A stretch of DNA of 64,000 bases from Ignavibacteria bacterium. GTDB lineage: Bacteria; Bacteroidota; Ignavibacteria; Tepidaquicellales; Tepidaquicellaceae. This document shows, one piece after another, positions 17,293 through 23,851 of the stretch. The translations under genes were made by a program, and so were the position numbers. The stretch covers positions 1 to 64,000 of the forward strand of contig JAQTLX010000015.1 of assembly GCA_028714695.1 (NCBI GenBank). The letters are read 5' to 3'. Each line of letters opens with the position of its first letter. The first letter of the stretch is position 1. Under the pieces are notes generated by a model, which saw only the letters and a list, made by a program, of their open reading frames with translations, was not told the DNA's origin and did no database searches.

Positions 17293-18120
17293 TTGAATAC
17301 TTCTAAAATAACTGAAATTAAATCCAACAATAAATTTTCGAATTATTGGAAAGAAATTTGGGACTACAAAGAACTGTTTTTCTTTCTTGCTTGGAGAGAT
17401 ATATTAGTCAGATATAAACAAACATTTTTTGGAATTGCATGGTCGATTATACGACCGTTAATAACAATCGTCGTATTTTCGGTAATATTCGGAAAAGTAG
17501 CATCATTACCGTCAGACGGAATTCCATATCCCATATTAGTGATCGCGGGAACACTGCCGTGGCAGTTATTTTCAACTTCACTATCGGAAGCAAGCAACAG
17601 TTTGATATCAAATTCCAATATGATAACGAAAGTTTATTTTCCAAGACTCGCAATACCTTTGAGCACAATTGTTGTAAGCATCATTGATTTTGCCATATCT
17701 CTGGTAATACTAATCTGTGTCATGATTTATTATGCATACATACCGAGTTGGCAGATTTTAACACTGCCCATTTTTATATTAATCGCGATATTAGCATCAC
17801 TCGGCGGCGGAATATGGTTCTCAGCATTAAATGTCAAATACAGAGATTTTAAATTTGTAATACCATTCATCGTGCAATTTGGTTTATTTGTATCACCCGT
17901 AGGTTTTAGTTCTTCATTGGTACCGGGGAAGTGGAAACTGATTTATTCACTCAACCCGATGGTTGGTGTAATCGATGGTTTCAGATGGGCAATCACGGGG
18001 AAAGAATCAAGTTTGTTTGCGGAAGGCTTTATGGTTTCGCTGATAATTGTTTTGATAATCTTTTTTAGCGGAATTTGGTATTTCAGAAAAACAGAAAAAA
18101 CATTTGCCGATTTTATTTGA
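17293..18120 (+). CDS. wzm: Polysaccharide ABC exporter, permease subunit (Wzm-like)
   Basis: The 275-residue product has the ABC-2 permease layout: a cytoplasmic N-terminus with LFFFLAWRDILVRYKQTFFG (about 29-48), then six hydrophobic segments, with ALNVKYRDFKFVIPFIVQFG as the conserved loop. This is the Wzm/KpsM/TagG family that moves undecaprenyl-linked polysaccharide across the inner membrane. The start is TTG at 17293; no ATG occurs in frame before the core domain. An 11-bp direct repeat (TTGAATACTTC at 17270 and 17293) overlaps the start region. The ATPase partner begins 35 nt after the stop. Confidence 0.92.
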   Translation: MNTSKITEIKSNNKFSNYWKEIWDYKELFFFLAWRDILVRYKQTFFGIAWSIIRPLITIVVFSVIFGKVASLPSDGIPYPILVIAGTLPWQLFSTSLSEASNSLISNSNMITKVYFPRLAIPLSTIVVSIIDFAISLVILICVMIYYAYIPSWQILTLPIFILIAILASLGGGIWFSALNVKYRDFKFVIPFIVQFGLFVSPVGFSSSLVPGKWKLIYSLNPMVGVIDGFRWAITGKESSLFAEGFMVSLIIVLIIFFSGIWYFRKTEKTFADFI

Positions 18121-18155
18121 TTATAAATTATTATTAAAGGATTAACTTACCTGAA

Positions 18156-19385
18156 ATGCACTCGATAGAAATTAAGGATATCAGCAAAAAGTATATAATT
18201 AGCCGCTATAATGACAACAGGCAGAACAATTCAATCAGAGAATCCATTTCGAATAAAATCAAAAATGTATTTTCAAAAAAGACCAGAGATAACAAAAGAG
18301 AAGAATTCTGGGCGTTAAGAGATGTATCTTTTAACGTAAATATCGGCGACAAAATCGGAATCATAGGGAAAAACGGCGCAGGGAAATCAACATTATTAAA
18401 AATATTATCAAGAATAACCAACCCTACTTCGGGAAGTATAACATTAAACGGCAGAGTCGCAAGTTTGCTGGAAGTAGGAACAGGATTTCACCCTGAACTC
18501 ACAGGAAAGGAAAATATTTTTTTGAACGGTTCCATTCTGGGAATGAAGAAAAATGAAATCAAGAAAAAATTCGATGAAATAGTCGCGTTTTCCGAAATCG
18601 AACAATTTCTTGATACGCCGGTTAAGAGATATTCAAGCGGAATGTATGTACGATTGGCATTTTCCGTTGCCGCGCACCTTGAACCGGAAATTTTATTGAT
18701 AGATGAAGTCCTTGCCGTAGGAGACGCGCAATTTCAAAAAAAATGCATCGGTAAAATGGAGAGCGCTTCAAAAGAAGGAAGAACGATTTTGTTCGTAAGC
18801 CATAATATGGGAGCAATTAAACAATTATGCTCGAGAGCAGTTTTACTCGAAAAAGGAAAAGTTAAATTAGATTCAAATGTTGACGATGTAATTTCGAATT
18901 ATTTCGAAGATGTGGTTACCGACACTTCATTTGAAATGGAATTTGACAAAAAAGACAGAGTAGAAAATTTATACAAGGTATACATCAACAAAATAAGTTT
19001 CCCGAATAAACTGGCATTATACAAAATGTGGGAACCGATAAATATGGAATTGGAAATTGATAATTTGTCAAACATGGACCAGGAAATAATAGCGGGATTG
19101 ACAATATTATCCGTCGATGAATATCCGGCTTTTTCTGTCGAATCCGAGGATTGCGGTCATAAATTATTTTTAAAAAATAATTCTAGAACAAACATTAAGA
19201 TATCAATACCCTATCCAAATTTAGCGCCGGGTAAATACTTCATAAGAATCGGAATCAGAGCAGGCTTGAATGTTATAGATTTTAAAGACAGGACGCTGCA
19301 TTTCGAAATTCAATCCGGTCTGAATACTTATCCTACAAAGAACTTTATACACGGAATGAAAGCACAGTCAAAATGGGAATACTAG
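18156..19385 (+). CDS. wzt: Polysaccharide ABC exporter, ATPase with carbohydrate-binding C-terminal domain (Wzt-like)
   Basis: The 409-residue product has Walker A GKNGAGKST (71-79), the signature RYSSGMYVRLAF (159-170), Walker B ILLIDEVLAVGD (180-191) and the switch His in VSHNMG (about 217). The region from about 255 to 409 is an additional beta-rich domain (WEPINMELEIDNLSN, YPNLAPGKYFIRIGI) that fits the Wzt_C carbohydrate-binding module. In known systems that module recognises the modified non-reducing end of the finished chain before export. The final 13 nt overlap the next gene, an FkbM methyltransferase, so the two are probably translationally coupled. This supports export of a terminally modified chain. 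Confidence 0.93.
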   Translation: MHSIEIKDISKKYIISRYNDNRQNNSIRESISNKIKNVFSKKTRDNKREEFWALRDVSFNVNIGDKIGIIGKNGAGKSTLLKILSRITNPTSGSITLNGRVASLLEVGTGFHPELTGKENIFLNGSILGMKKNEIKKKFDEIVAFSEIEQFLDTPVKRYSSGMYVRLAFSVAAHLEPEILLIDEVLAVGDAQFQKKCIGKMESASKEGRTILFVSHNMGAIKQLCSRAVLLEKGKVKLDSNVDDVISNYFEDVVTDTSFEMEFDKKDRVENLYKVYINKISFPNKLALYKMWEPINMELEIDNLSNMDQEIIAGLTILSVDEYPAFSVESEDCGHKLFLKNNSRTNIKISIPYPNLAPGKYFIRIGIRAGLNVIDFKDRTLHFEIQSGLNTYPTKNFIHGMKAQSKWEY

Positions 19386-20179
19386 AAAGAACCAATAATA
19401 AAATCAAAAAAGAATTTTTCAAATTTTCCAACAAAGAACTTACCGAAAATCTCGAGAGATTAGTTTCCGAATTAAACTATATTGCGCCTGTAAATTTTTG
19501 TTCCGTAGGCGCGCGAGGCGGGAACCCTTACCTGATTAATTATTTAAGACGGTTACGAATTGCAAATACCATCGGATTCGAACCGGATAGCGAAGAAGCA
19601 AGGATTTTAAGAACAAACAACATATACGAAGAAGTTTTTGAATATGCGCTGGGTGAATACGAAACTGACGAAACATTATACATTACTAAGGAACCTGGCT
19701 GTTCATCCATATTAAAACCGAATATGGATTTTATAAAAAAACATTTTTCATCGCCTGACTGGTTCGAAATTGTAAATGAAGCACTAATTCATGTCACCGG
19801 TCTGGACAATATCTCAAGCAAATTACCCGATATTGACATTATACAGATTGACACTCAAGGTTATGAATATCAAATTATTAAGGGAGGCGAGGAAACAATC
19901 AAGCGAATACCCGTAATAATATTTGAAAGCCACATGTACGAATTATATGAAGGACAAAAAACATTCTTCCAAATTCATAATCTCATGACAAAGAATAATT
20001 TTCTTCTGAACGACTTGAAACAGCAGGGCGATTTTGGATGTTTGGGGGCGGAGTTTAATTTTGTTTACTTCAATGAGAATTTATTTAAATCCGAGAAAAA
20101 CAAGGTCACGACTTTGCTGAAAACAGCATATCATTTAAACAATAATAGTTTCGATGAATTATTAATAAAAATAATATAA
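19373..20179 (+). CDS. FkbM-family methyltransferase
   Basis: The 268-residue product has a degenerate SAM-binding motif I (VNFCSVGARGGNPYLINYLR, about 40-59), then GFEPDSEEAR as the acidic motif, PGCSSILKPN, and IDIIQIDTQGYEYQIIKGG, all features of the FkbM O-methyltransferase family. The enzyme would O-methylate a sugar hydroxyl using S-adenosylmethionine. Its ATG overlaps the end of the Wzt gene by 13 nt and its stop lies 2 nt before the nucleotidyltransferase-kinase gene. The tight link to a Wzt with a carbohydrate-binding domain suggests, by inference, a role in marking the chain end. Confidence 0.86.
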   Translation: MGILERTNNKIKKEFFKFSNKELTENLERLVSELNYIAPVNFCSVGARGGNPYLINYLRRLRIANTIGFEPDSEEARILRTNNIYEEVFEYALGEYETDETLYITKEPGCSSILKPNMDFIKKHFSSPDWFEIVNEALIHVTGLDNISSKLPDIDIIQIDTQGYEYQIIKGGEETIKRIPVIIFESHMYELYEGQKTFFQIHNLMTKNNFLLNDLKQQGDFGCLGAEFNFVYFNENLFKSEKNKVTTLLKTAYHLNNNSFDELLIKII

Positions 20180-20181
20180 CG

Positions 20182-21810
20182 TTGAAAGAATTAATTGTAA
20201 TTTTAGCAGCCGGGAAAATCGAGAATAATCAAATACCGATTGTATCGAACAATAACAACTCGATGCTGCCTGTTAACGGGAAACCAGTAATCAACTGGAT
20301 TTTGGAAGACTTAACAGAAAGAAGCGATGCTAAAATTAATATTGTAGTAAGAGAGGAAAACCAATTTTTAATCAATAACATAGAACATCTGTACGGCTCC
20401 TCTAAACAGGTAAATTCAGTCATCCTTAAAGATTCCAAATGTATTTTGGAATCTTTACTTAAGGGGATAGAGCATGAAAAGGATGCCGCTCTGGTTCAGG
20501 TTGTGCTCGGCGATACTCTGATTAAAGATAACATCAAATATTACGATGATTTTGTATATGCGGGATACGTCAATGATTCCAACAGATGGTGTCTTGCAAA
20601 TATTCAAAACGGGTATATAAAGGATTTAGCAGATAAAAGGGACAAGAAAGGAAGAGAATTTACAGCGCTTGCCGGATTCTATCAGTTTACAAATTTAAAA
20701 ATTTTAAAGGAATCAATTCGAACTTCGTTAAAAAATAATTGCAAAGAATTAAGCGCGGCATTATTAATGTACAACAAGCAACTGCCGATTAAAGTAAGAA
20801 TTGCTAAAGAATGGTATGATTTCGGACATATAGAAAATTTCATCAGATCAAAGCATAAATTATTGCAGTCAAGATTTTTTAATTCATTTGAGATAGATGA
20901 GTATGCAAATACACTGACTAAAAGCAGCGAGAATAATAAAATCATAGATGAGTACAATTGGTTTGTGAATATTCCGGCGGAATTAAAAATCTTCACTCCA
21001 AGAATAATCAAGACATTCAGAAAAAACAATAAATTTCATTTTGTTCAAGAATATTACGGTTACAATAATTTAGCCGAACTGTACATTTACAGCGACCTGC
21101 ATTATGAAAACTGGATTTCCATAGTTAATAAAATTTTTCAGGTACATAATGAGTTTAAAAAATACAAAGGAAACATCTCTAAAAAAAACCTGTTCGATAT
21201 TTATTTCGGCAAAACAGAAGAAAGAATTAAGAATTTGCGTGAAAGAGATGCTGACTGGGCTAAGATTCTGGACTATCATTACTTACAGATTAACGGCAAA
21301 CGTTATCCCGGTTTTTCGTTGATTAAAAATAAAATTAAAAGAAAGGTCGAAAGACTGATATCAAAACATGAATCGACTATAATCCACGGCGATTTTTGTT
21401 TTTCCAATATTTTGTTCGACGTAAATAATCAGGTTATCAGAGTTGTCGACCCCAGAGGCAGTTTTGGGAAAAAAGGGATTTATGGAGACCCAAGATATGA
21501 TATTGCCAAGTTAAGGCATTCCATATCGGGTTTATATGATTATATTATTACGGATAATTTTAAATGCAGAATAAAAAATAACAAAATTGATTATAAAATA
21601 TTTTCATCGGCTAAGCAGAATAAAATAATGGATTATTTTGATGAGACGCTGATTAGCGAAGGATATGACCTCGATGAAATCAAATTAATTGAAGGATTAT
21701 TATTTATTTCTATGTTACCGTATCATGATAAAAAAATACAAAGACAAATACTAATGTATTCCACAGGAATAAAAATATTAAATGAATTATTAAATGAGAA
21801 TAGCAATTGA
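20182..21810 (+). CDS. Nucleotidyltransferase-like / APH-like kinase fusion
   Basis: The 542-residue product has two parts. Residues 1-230 follow a sugar- or alcohol-phosphate nucleotidyltransferase plan (LIVILAAGKIE, then SMLPVNGKPVINWILEDL, VQVVLGDTLI), but the usual GxGTRxxPK loop is replaced by an Asn-rich segment, so activity is uncertain. Residues about 290-542 are an aminoglycoside-phosphotransferase/choline-kinase-like domain with STIIHGDFCFSNILFD as catalytic loop and IRVVDPRGSFGKKGIYGDPR as metal-binding loop, followed by YDIAKLRHS. It starts at TTG, 2 nt after the FkbM gene, and overlaps the HAD gene by 17 nt. It may phosphorylate and activate a small hydroxylated compound or sugar for transfer to the polysaccharide. 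The substrate is unknown; a LicA/LicC-like logic is possible but unproven. Confidence 0.8.
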   Translation: MKELIVILAAGKIENNQIPIVSNNNNSMLPVNGKPVINWILEDLTERSDAKINIVVREENQFLINNIEHLYGSSKQVNSVILKDSKCILESLLKGIEHEKDAALVQVVLGDTLIKDNIKYYDDFVYAGYVNDSNRWCLANIQNGYIKDLADKRDKKGREFTALAGFYQFTNLKILKESIRTSLKNNCKELSAALLMYNKQLPIKVRIAKEWYDFGHIENFIRSKHKLLQSRFFNSFEIDEYANTLTKSSENNKIIDEYNWFVNIPAELKIFTPRIIKTFRKNNKFHFVQEYYGYNNLAELYIYSDLHYENWISIVNKIFQVHNEFKKYKGNISKKNLFDIYFGKTEERIKNLRERDADWAKILDYHYLQINGKRYPGFSLIKNKIKRKVERLISKHESTIIHGDFCFSNILFDVNNQVIRVVDPRGSFGKKGIYGDPRYDIAKLRHSISGLYDYIITDNFKCRIKNNKIDYKIFSSAKQNKIMDYFDETLISEGYDLDEIKLIEGLLFISMLPYHDKKIQRQILMYSTGIKILNELLNENSN

Positions 21811-22156
21811 TTTAGACGGAACAATTTGCGACATAAAACAGCCGGGCGAATCTTACCGGGACATTAAGCCTAAAGACGGCGCTGCGGAAAAAATCAAAGA
21901 CCTGAGAAAGCAGGGGCATTATATAATTATTTTGACAGCCCGCAATATGGCTACGTGCGAAAGCAATTTGGGGAAAGTAATGAAAAATGTCGGCAAAATT
22001 ACACTGGAATGGCTTGAAAAATTCGATATAGAATATGATGAAATTTATTTTGGTAAACCTAATGCAAATTTATACATCGATGACAGGGCGCTGCGATTTA
22101 ATAATTGGGATAATATTACAAGCGACTTTTTAAATAAAGAAGCAAGAGAAAGATGA
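21794..22156 (+). CDS. HAD-superfamily phosphatase of capsule/LPS type
   Basis: The 120-residue product carries the HAD motif I DLDGT (7-11) near the N-terminus, motif II in IIILTARNMAT, and a late acidic motif NLYIDDRALRF, with a short cap-less layout. Small HAD enzymes of this type sit in capsule clusters next to nucleotidyltransferases. The likely reaction is removal of phosphate from a precursor, or less likely transfer. Its start overlaps the preceding kinase fusion by 17 nt and its stop overlaps the following nucleotidyltransferase by 4 nt, so the three are probably translated together and work on one metabolite. Confidence 0.85.
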   Translation: MRIAIDLDGTICDIKQPGESYRDIKPKDGAAEKIKDLRKQGHYIIILTARNMATCESNLGKVMKNVGKITLEWLEKFDIEYDEIYFGKPNANLYIDDRALRFNNWDNITSDFLNKEARER

Positions 22157-22875
22157 AAATCGTAGTACCGATGGCGGGTCTCGGCAGCAGATTTTCTTCG
22201 AAAGGGATTAACATTCCGAAACCTTTTTACGCAATTTTCAATAAACCGATATACTGCTGGGCGCTGGAATCAATTAAAGGTATAAGTGCATCGGAAATAA
22301 TATTTATCGCGCAATCATCTCATAAAGAGTATTTTAATTTAGATGACATAACCCCGGTAAGCAAAGATACAAAATTAAATTTCATCTTTATCGACGAGAT
22401 TACCGAAGGTCAGTTGTGTACTGTTTTGAAGGCAAAAGATTCCTTAGACACTGATGAAGACTTATTAGTAATAAGTTCCGATACGATTGTTTCATCGGAT
22501 ATCAAGAATCACATTCAAAATAAAAGAGATGATGTACGAGGAATTATTTCAGTCATAGAAGCGGAAGGCGGTAACTGGAGTTTTGCTAAAACAGATAAGG
22601 ACGGCAATGTCATTGAAGTAGCGGAGAAAAAGCGTATATCGGATTTGGCAAGTACGGGTATATATTATTTTTCAGGCTGCAAAGAGTTTCTGCATTATGC
22701 CGGCAATGTGATTTCAAATAAAATAAAAGAAAAAAACGAATACTATGTGATTCCGCTATATCGGCAATATATAAATGATAATAAAATTATAAAGACTTCC
22801 CGAGCGGAGAAAATGTGGGACCTCGGAACACCAGATAAAGTCGAGTTATTTATAAAAAGTCACAAACTTGATTAG
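22153..22875 (+). CDS. Sugar- or alcohol-phosphate nucleotidyltransferase
   Basis: The 240-residue product has a complete nucleotidyltransferase signature, IVVPMAGLGSRFSSKG followed by IPKPFYAIFNKPI (about 3-33), the metal-binding VISSDTIVSS near residue 109, and EKKRISDLASTGIYYFSG near 157. It ends with MWDLGTPDKVELF. The family (NTP_transferase) makes nucleotide-activated sugars or polyols from a phosphate and an NTP. Unlike the fusion protein upstream, its nucleotide-binding loop is intact, so this may be the active nucleotidyltransferase of the set. It overlaps the HAD gene by 4 nt and the WavE-like gene by 8 nt. Confidence 0.86.
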   Translation: MKIVVPMAGLGSRFSSKGINIPKPFYAIFNKPIYCWALESIKGISASEIIFIAQSSHKEYFNLDDITPVSKDTKLNFIFIDEITEGQLCTVLKAKDSLDTDEDLLVISSDTIVSSDIKNHIQNKRDDVRGIISVIEAEGGNWSFAKTDKDGNVIEVAEKKRISDLASTGIYYFSGCKEFLHYAGNVISNKIKEKNEYYVIPLYRQYINDNKIIKTSRAEKMWDLGTPDKVELFIKSHKLD

Positions 22876-23851
22876 CGATAGAGATATTTCATTTGTTGTA
22901 CAGGGACCGATTACAATAAAAACTATCGGCGATAAAAAAATAAATGTTACCGCTGAGGCGCTTGAAAGCATACGTAAATATTACCCTAACTCGGAAATAA
23001 TTTTATCCACTTATAAGAATTCAGATTTGAGCGGTCTTCAATATGATGTTTGCGTGGAAAATGATGATCCCGGCGCTACGACATTTAATGACGATATTCT
23101 GAAAGGAAAATATCACAACATCAACCGGCAATTGTTTACAACCGGAAACGGTTTAAAAAGAGCAAGCAGAAAACATTGTGTAAAAACCAGAACGGATTGT
23201 TTAATTGTTTCGAATTCCCTGCTTAACATCGATACATCTCAATATCGCAGAAACGATAATTTCGGATATTTCGAAAACAGGATTGCGTTATCCGAATTAT
23301 ATACAAGAGATCCGGTTAAATTTCCATTCTTATTCCAGTTTACCGATATCTTTCAATTCGGTTTGACCGTAGATTTGAAAAGTCTATGGGATATTGAATT
23401 AGCGCCTGAACCGGAAACCACCAGATACTTTGAGAATAAAAGGCTTCCAAAGTTTTATCTATTGAAAAACTACAATTATTTATTCCGTTGTTCCGCTGAA
23501 CAATACTTGTGGAGTTCCTTTTTAATTAAGAAAGGATTGAAAGCCCGTTTAAAACATCCGTCACATATAAATTACAGACTTTTTAAATTATCGGAATATT
23601 TTTTAATCAATAATTGCATTGTATTCAGTCAGAAAGATTTAGGAATACAATTGCCCGAACACATGAGAGGCTCGGATGGTCCCGGTAATTTATTGTACAC
23701 AAATAAAGAATGGATTGATTTGTACAATTGGTACATAGTGAAAAATAATAAGACAAAAATTCTATTCCGGTATTTTGCCATATTAAGATATAAATACCGA
23801 TTTTTTAAAAAATATTTTATCCATTCAGATCCGAAAATTTTTGCCGGTTAG
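22868..23851 (+). CDS. WavE-like LPS transferase
   Basis: The 327-residue product starts (TTG) with DISFVVQGPI, the hallmark VVQGP of the WavE lipopolysaccharide synthesis family, followed by SIRKYYPNSEIILSTYKNSD, NDDPGA, and NINRQLFTTGNGLKRASRKH with the conserved KTRTD (about 98-112). WavE proteins are needed for core or O-antigen synthesis in Vibrio and occur in many capsule loci; a glycosyltransferase GT-A-like role is assumed but poorly proven. The 8-nt overlap with the nucleotidyltransferase gene makes it the natural candidate for using the compound that enzyme activates. Confidence 0.82.
   Translation: MISDRDISFVVQGPITIKTIGDKKINVTAEALESIRKYYPNSEIILSTYKNSDLSGLQYDVCVENDDPGATTFNDDILKGKYHNINRQLFTTGNGLKRASRKHCVKTRTDCLIVSNSLLNIDTSQYRRNDNFGYFENRIALSELYTRDPVKFPFLFQFTDIFQFGLTVDLKSLWDIELAPEPETTRYFENKRLPKFYLLKNYNYLFRCSAEQYLWSSFLIKKGLKARLKHPSHINYRLFKLSEYFLINNCIVFSQKDLGIQLPEHMRGSDGPGNLLYTNKEWIDLYNWYIVKNNKTKILFRYFAILRYKYRFFKKYFIHSDPKIFAG

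Follow-up and report, generated by a model that had tools for sequence, protein, structure and literature searches.

What is made by four overlapping genes that bring together a kinase, a phosphatase, a nucleotidyltransferase and a transferase within a polysaccharide cluster? This question is raised by a locus of an Ignavibacteria bacterium (NCBI GenBank assembly GCA_028714695.1), found in a stretch of 64,000 nucleotides of contig JAQTLX010000015.1 (positions 1 to 64,000 of the forward strand), referred to here as the window. The four genes lie on the + strand between positions 20182 and 23851 and encode, in order, a fusion of a nucleotidyltransferase (NT)-fold domain with a kinase domain, a HAD phosphatase, a stand-alone sugar NT and a WavE-family transferase. 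The explanation favoured here, to which we give a probability of about two in three, is that the four proteins activate a furanose-forming sugar phosphate, the sugar then being added to an exported polysaccharide. In such a route the kinase, which has the APH fold, would phosphorylate the anomeric hydroxyl (C2 in the case of fructose-6-phosphate), the HAD phosphatase would strip the terminal (6- or 5-) phosphate either before or after the kinase has acted, the stand-alone NT would join the anomeric phosphate to a nucleoside triphosphate (NTP) to give a nucleoside diphosphate (NDP)-furanose, and the WavE protein would transfer the furanosyl group. We infer every one of these chemical steps, as well as the order of kinase and phosphatase, the nucleotide and the sugar, from the gene set, the predicted folds, the conserved catalytic residues, the co-occurrence of the genes and homology to KfoE and, distantly, to phage proteins. 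The product is quite probably a nucleotide-activated furanose or a similar sugar, and fructose can be named, tentatively, as the leading candidate in this organism.

The first gene (20182-21810, TTG start) encodes the fusion, a protein of 542 residues. Both halves score under the cut-off in family searches (17.1 bits for the N-terminal half against PF00483, NTP_transferase, and 18.7 bits for the C-terminal half against PF01636, APH); a search of the full-length sequence against the PDB returned no match, and a profile search with the kinase domain returned weak, non-significant matches only. The folds are taken from AlphaFold2 models of the fusion (68 aligned sequences, mean pLDDT 93.5) and of the kinase domain by itself (88 aligned sequences, pLDDT 96.5). 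Residues 1-230 (20182-20871), assigned from the model, its structural matches and column counts, are predicted to form a whole sugar-nucleotidyltransferase fold, with Z 22-24 to GlmU, GalU and RmlA. Although the fold is kept, the G-x-G-x-R...P-K loop by which an active sugar nucleotidyltransferase is recognised is lost in the window protein, across the 68 aligned relatives and in all 80 of 80 fused relatives. With its NTP loop gone, the fused domain probably does not work as an ordinary pyrophosphorylase, and since 43 relatives are stand-alone kinases that do without it, it is dispensable and not essential to the chemistry. A W211-x-D213-x-G215 motif is nevertheless invariant in the domain (68 sequences), which probably serves as a scaffold or for substrate binding. 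Two fusions with an intact GTGSR/GLGSR loop (L005:1438-3006 in genome G225 and L018:1471-3048 in genome G243) form a separate branch, suggesting that the degenerate domain descends from an active one; the neighbours of the latter include ribulose-phosphate-epimerase-like and SIS-like genes, assigned by eye.

The kinase itself occupies residues 231-542 (20872-21810) and was identified from the model, from its invariant residues and from homology to KfoE of Escherichia coli K4. It has the fold and the catalytic K, E, HGD...N and D set that define the APH superfamily, with K247, S249, E257, H402-G403-D404, N409, D423-x-R425 and G435 invariant in 68/68 sequences. The modelled domain matches APH, 5-methylthioribose kinase and choline kinase structures at Z 16-18, and its top matches, PsiK, APH(2''), 5-methylthioribose kinase (Z 17.9-18.0) and APH(4), are tied within one Z unit. 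Because the best scores tie in this way, structure alone cannot pick the substrate. 5-Methylthioribose kinase phosphorylates a furanose at its anomeric hydroxyl, so that the anomeric phosphorylation proposed here has a precedent within the fold class.

The remaining three proteins are more readily placed. The HAD phosphatase (21794-22156, 120 residues) resembles EcbF and BcbF, and at 83.0 bits against TIGR01689 (EcbF-BcbF; cut-off 162) it is a relative outside that subfamily; HAD proteins from gammaproteobacterial cassettes exceed the cut-off. Its closest solved relative is PDB 1XPJ (E 8.7e-19), and the catalytic residues D6, D8, T48, K88, D96 and D97 are kept (94 aligned relatives). The stand-alone NT (22153-22875, 240 residues) has an intact loop (GLGSRF...PKP), scores 37.1 bits against PF00483 (cut-off 21.2) and finds its closest solved relative in PDB 4EVW (E 2.1e-17). 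Its loop and metal-binding residues G9, R13, K23, D110, E158 and K159 are conserved in 109-114 of 116 relatives, and it is predicted from these features to be an active sugar nucleotidyltransferase. Both solved structures are from Vibrio cholerae. The last protein (22868-23851, TTG start, 327 residues) is a clear member of the WavE family (188.8 bits against PF07507, cut-off 27) and a candidate furanosyltransferase; we know of no chemistry assigned to this Pfam family. NT and HAD are fused in one protein in Lokiarchaeota, Devosia and Rhizobiales bins (L054, L089 and L104), which also speaks for their acting one after the other. A preliminary description of this DNA, made from the sequence alone, had reported that the four reading frames overlap by 17 nucleotides (fusion/HAD), 4 (HAD/NT) and 8 (NT/WavE), and these values were confirmed. 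Its account of the first protein as a degenerate-loop NT joined to an APH-like kinase is borne out by the predicted folds, the sub-threshold Pfam scores and the loss of the loop in the fused relatives, and its account of the third protein as one with an intact loop by the Pfam score and the conserved catalytic residues.

Whether the genes belong together can be judged from their distribution. A scan for the kinase found relatives in Chlorobi-related bacteria, Bacteroidota, Chloroflexi, Gemmatimonadetes, Firmicutes, Verrucomicrobia, Proteobacteria and Actinobacteria, as well as in two archaeal bins and in viruses; many of these loci come from metagenome bins, and individual host assignments may be wrong. 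Among 84 cellular or plasmid kinase loci, 15 of which have the kinase near a contig end, an HAD gene lies within five genes in 69 and directly adjoins the kinase in 63, a separate NT is present in 79, and HAD and NT are both present in 66. Within the 394 genomes of the order around genome G395, the HAD family (TIGR01689) occurs in 26, the kinase in 26 and both in 25 (Fisher p 3e-37, uncorrected for relatedness). In the lone genome with HAD and no kinase (G448:C65:43679-45056), the HAD and WavE homologues are both fragmented, which looks like a decaying cassette. WavE is found in 20 genomes of the same set; 13 of these also have the kinase, in every case with WavE at most 3.4 kb away. These counts, together with a WavE gene near the kinase in 34 of the 84 cellular loci, define kinase, HAD and NT as the core of the cassette and WavE as a frequent partner. 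The order seen in the window (kinase-HAD-NT-WavE) recurs in Legionella, an uncultured proteobacterium, a Flavobacteriia bin and a Pelagibacteraceae single cell. In the window's own phylum, one other close full-length relative was found among 395 genomes, so the cassette is accessory there.

A clue to the sugar is provided by the K4 capsule of E. coli. One locus of E. coli SCU-115 (L161) is the K4 capsule cluster, in which KfoC matches chondroitin synthase PDB 2z86 (625 residues, 1449 bits); kfoD and kfoF there enclose three genes homologous to the HAD, fusion and NT genes of the window. The fusion is 31% identical to KfoE over 449 aa (residues 99-532, E 2e-47), and the window HAD and NT are 35% and 28% identical to the respective neighbours that flank kfoE. 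Published kfoE-deletion primers (PMC7429809) have perfect matches in this locus where the HAD gene ends and where the NT gene begins; as these are the two edges of the fusion gene, this gene is kfoE. Deletion of kfoE results in non-fructosylated chondroitin (PMC7925653, PMC7429809), and in K4 the fructose is attached to C3 of glucuronic acid as a beta-fructofuranose branch (PMC7429809). Since this fructose must join through its anomeric carbon, its donor should carry the activation at C2, and a start from fructose-6-phosphate requires a C2 kinase and a 6-phosphatase, plus an NT if the donor is a nucleotide sugar. The degenerate NT fold and full kinase catalytic set of KfoE suggest a function other than fructosyl transfer; KfoE would be a kinase, and not a fructosyltransferase, if furanose activation is correct.

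K4 thus shares three adjacent families with the window and adds, on its own side, the genetic link to fructofuranose, but it differs from the window in gene order (HAD-fusion-NT instead of fusion-HAD-NT), in having kfoD and no PF07507 WavE gene, and in a kinase that belongs to a separate clade. Profile comparison of the kfoD family with WavE indicates a distant relation (hhalign 96%, E 2e-9, 149 columns), so the true K4 transferase can be another gene than kfoE. The kfoD family also includes the long K52-type 'acyltransferase', and 32 of 121 kinase genes have a member of it no more than five genes away. We infer that WavE and its relatives are, plausibly, furanosyltransferases. In the kinase tree, the window kinase shares a clade (support 0.90) with Thermochlorobacter and other environmental lineages, apart from a K4/Vibrio clade (support 0.957). 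A direct transfer of sugar identity from K4 by phylogeny was considered and rejected on account of this separation.

Cassettes of the same kind are found in other gammaproteobacterial glycan clusters. A V. cholerae-like genome (L192) has the order waaA-HAD-fusion-NT-WavE, its HAD being 93% identical to 1XPJ and its NT 95% identical to 4EVW. Two other vibrio-like genomes show the HAD-fusion-NT-WavE series, again behind a waaA-like gene; waaA was assigned by eye in all of these genomes. All four families are thus adjacent in the V. cholerae-like genome, each 28-39% identical to its counterpart in the window, the differences being the lipid A-core context, the other gene order and the separate kinase clade, whereas the window cassette sits with an ABC-exported polymer. 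The capsule cluster of E. coli O15:H18 ST69 (L160) carries NT-HAD-fusion, in a lineage that presumably often has the K52 antigen. Both the core of V. cholerae and the K52 antigen contain fructose. No mention of fructose is made in the E. coli K-typing paper. A complete HAD-fusion-NT cassette is also present in the O-antigen cluster of E. coli O20/O137 (L156:8854-11566). The ribofuranose of the O20 antigen would be relevant to the range of substrates.

The most distant relatives of the fusion are found in RB69-type phages. These phages (L155) carry an SIS isomerase, an NT-kinase fusion with an intact NT loop and an HAD protein. Arabinosyl-hydroxymethylcytosine was found in this phage group, and RB69 ORF53_52c was proposed for the formation of UDP-arabinose by a route that was called unclear (2018 RB69 paper). 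The window fusion is a distant homologue of ORF53_52c (kinase profile 91 bits). The likeness to this Mosigvirus arabinosylation module is a homologous fusion plus HAD with a proposed role in sugar activation; the module differs in its intact fused NT loop, the lack of a separate NT found nearby, the added isomerase and an acceptor that is DNA. A 53% relative of ORF53_52c in phage Thanatos, TH1_060, is essential (PMC12838424).

Several phage loci hold further genes beside the cassette. A protein of Escherichia phage AlbertHofmann (L155:7486-8655) that carries the annotation of a UDP-arabinose enzyme belongs to the peptidase-U32 family (PF01136), so that its role may lie in hydroxylating the base and not in activating the sugar. 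In cyanophages, as seen in Synechococcus phage S-SKS1 (L038:3613-5040), the cassette NT is fused to a 3,4-dihydroxy-2-butanone-4-phosphate (DHBP) synthase domain and a transaldolase/FSA gene lies 3' of the HAD gene; such a gene is present in 24 viral loci. A cluster of seven freshwater viral contigs encodes a RuBisCO-like protein (L140:12061-13290; PF00016, E 3e-33) near a kinase-NT-HAD cassette and a transaldolase-family gene, and its KEDE motif, where the carbamylated lysine would be, suggests a RuBisCO-like enzyme of sugar synthesis. Cellular and phage contexts all point to furanose-forming sugar phosphates, though the additional phage genes may provide substrates of another kind. A wider proposal, possible rather than probable, is that one mobile cassette, present in bacteria and viruses and in a few archaeal bins, makes NDP-furanoses by anomeric phosphorylation. 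For fructose the path to NDP-fructofuranose would lead through fructose-2,6-bisphosphate or fructose-2-phosphate. The cassette would be the source of the fructose donors for the K4 capsule and the Vibrio lipopolysaccharide core and of the arabinose donors for phage DNA, with KfoE a misnamed kinase and WavE-type proteins as furanosyltransferases.

A number of points weigh against furanose activation by the window cassette. The best Z scores of the modelled kinase tie among sugar, aminoglycoside and amine kinases. As the window kinase is not a member of the K4/Vibrio clade, its sugar need not be fructose. The O-antigen cluster of E. coli O78 (L158:5798-11728) contains WavE and a complete HAD-fusion-NT cassette, but the published O78 repeat has only mannose and N-acetylglucosamine and no furanose. 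Furanose side chains are easily lost in mild acid, and the O78 structure work may have removed an acid-labile one. Published work gives KfoE the name of a fructosyltransferase (Liu 2014, as reported in a citing paper), and in the open-licence literature, to which our search was confined, no kinase, phosphatase or NDP-fructose-forming activity is demonstrated for the family. TH1_060 was inactive in vitro, the assays described in PMC12838424 being for pyrophosphorylase and transferase activity.

The naming of KfoE leads to a reading in which the fusion is itself the glycosyltransferase, its GT-A-like degenerate NT domain using activated fructose provided by the HAD and NT genes or by the host. 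Loss of fructosylation on kfoE deletion would be explained, as would the invariant W-x-D-x-G kept in the degenerate domain, but a complete and invariant APH-type catalytic set in the C-terminal domain, which is the sole domain in 43 relatives, is hard to reconcile with it. Separate WavE-type or other transferases are present at many cassette loci, K4 itself having a WavE-related candidate in kfoD, and we consider a transferase role for the fusion unlikely. Another reading keeps the activation chemistry as proposed and takes the sugar of this organism to be either a ketose other than fructose or a pentofuranose, with arabinose or ribose drawn from the pentose-phosphate pool. RB69-type phages, which arabinosylate DNA, have the kinase and HAD with an isomerase, phage cassettes include transaldolase, DHBP synthase and RuBisCO-like genes, and the window kinase falls outside the K4/Vibrio clade. 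Against such a substitution, the RB69 proteins stand furthest from the window fusion among its relatives, and pentose enzymes, whether isomerase, transaldolase or other, do not recur beside cellular cassettes, as would be expected if the substrate were an abundant hexose phosphate. No KdsD-like SIS isomerase was found beside cellular cassettes with the phage protein as query, a weak result in that the query retrieved only itself. A sugar other than fructose of this kind is possible, if doubtful.

Two further alternatives alter the chemistry. Ribofuranosyltransferase-phosphatase pairs are established for bacterial ribofuranose polymers (cited in PMC13171606), and by analogy the HAD protein might act after transfer, removing the phosphate from a furanose already on the glycan. 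A route of this type, based on phosphoribosyl pyrophosphate, has no need of the kinase and NT that the cassette contains, and HAD pairs near-obligately with the kinase, not with one transferase family; we regard post-transfer dephosphorylation as very unlikely. Least probable is a LicA/LicC-like route, in which an amino alcohol or polyol would be activated as a cytidine diphosphate derivative. The likeness is an NT fold, resembling LicC, and an APH-superfamily kinase in one protein, as in LicC-LicA fusions, and the kinase model resembles LicA (Z 17.1, slightly under the top matches) and choline kinase (Z 16.0). In contrast to LicA/LicC, the window fusion has a degenerate NT and an extra HAD gene, a step that the choline route does not have, and there is no choline/ethanolamine kinase family among its Pfam matches at E up to 1; deletion of kfoE affects a sugar and not an amino alcohol.

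The logic of furanose activation is familiar from other sugars. In the MupP/AmgK/MurU route of N-acetylmuramic acid recycling and the HddA/GmhB/HddC route to activated heptose, a kinase, an HAD phosphatase and an NT together yield an NDP-sugar. The likeness to the window cassette lies in this shared kinase-HAD-NT logic and not in orthology: the stand-alone NT reaches 26.1 bits against MurU (NF045761, cut-off 250) and 26.6 bits against HddC (NF049965, cut-off 300), and HddA is a GHMP-type kinase whereas the window kinase is of the APH type. What is already known, then, is the parts, the kinase-HAD-NT logic and the knockout phenotype of one family member, KfoE. What appears to be new is the reading of the set as a general furanose-activation cassette, centred on its kinase and common to capsules, lipopolysaccharide cores and phage DNA modification.

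Measured against these results, the preliminary description fares unevenly. Its proposal of one translation unit whose products phosphorylate, dephosphorylate and nucleotidyl-activate a single metabolite is supported by the recurrence of the trio across phyla, archaeal bins and viruses, and the same survey (66 of 84 cellular loci) removes, for the trio, the concern that the genes might not co-occur elsewhere. WavE as the transferase of the route holds in part, as a frequent partner that is not core and is sometimes replaced by a distantly related family. The description of the pathway as undescribed is likewise half sustained: KfoE and ORF53_52c are homologues with known contexts, and no published route to activated fructose for bacterial glycans was found in the open-licence literature. 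The possibility that the set would match a pathway already characterised is realised only partly, through the link of KfoE to capsule fructose, since the open-licence literature demonstrates no activated fructose or enzyme step. The compound, which had been left as unknown, is no longer a complete unknown, since KfoE directs attention to a furanose sugar and to fructose first.

The surroundings of the cassette are those of a polysaccharide cluster. Upstream on the same strand lies a polysaccharide ABC exporter (17293-19385), consisting of a permease (17293-18120), assigned from position and sequence, and an ATPase (18156-19385) that resembles galactan and teichoic acid exporter ATPases in a family profile search. 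An FkbM methyltransferase gene (19373-20179, also on the + strand; PF05050, 60.9 bits) directly precedes the cassette, and more glycosyltransferase and methyltransferase genes lie 3' of it.

The cassette offers a concrete enzyme set for two questions, the origin of activated fructose in bacterial glycans and that of UDP-arabinose in RB69. It is also suggested that KfoE, which is deleted in chondroitin production strains, has been misassigned, the real transferase being kfoD or another gene. If furanose activation is true, the WavE family would gain a role, and furanose side chains would become predictable from sequence.

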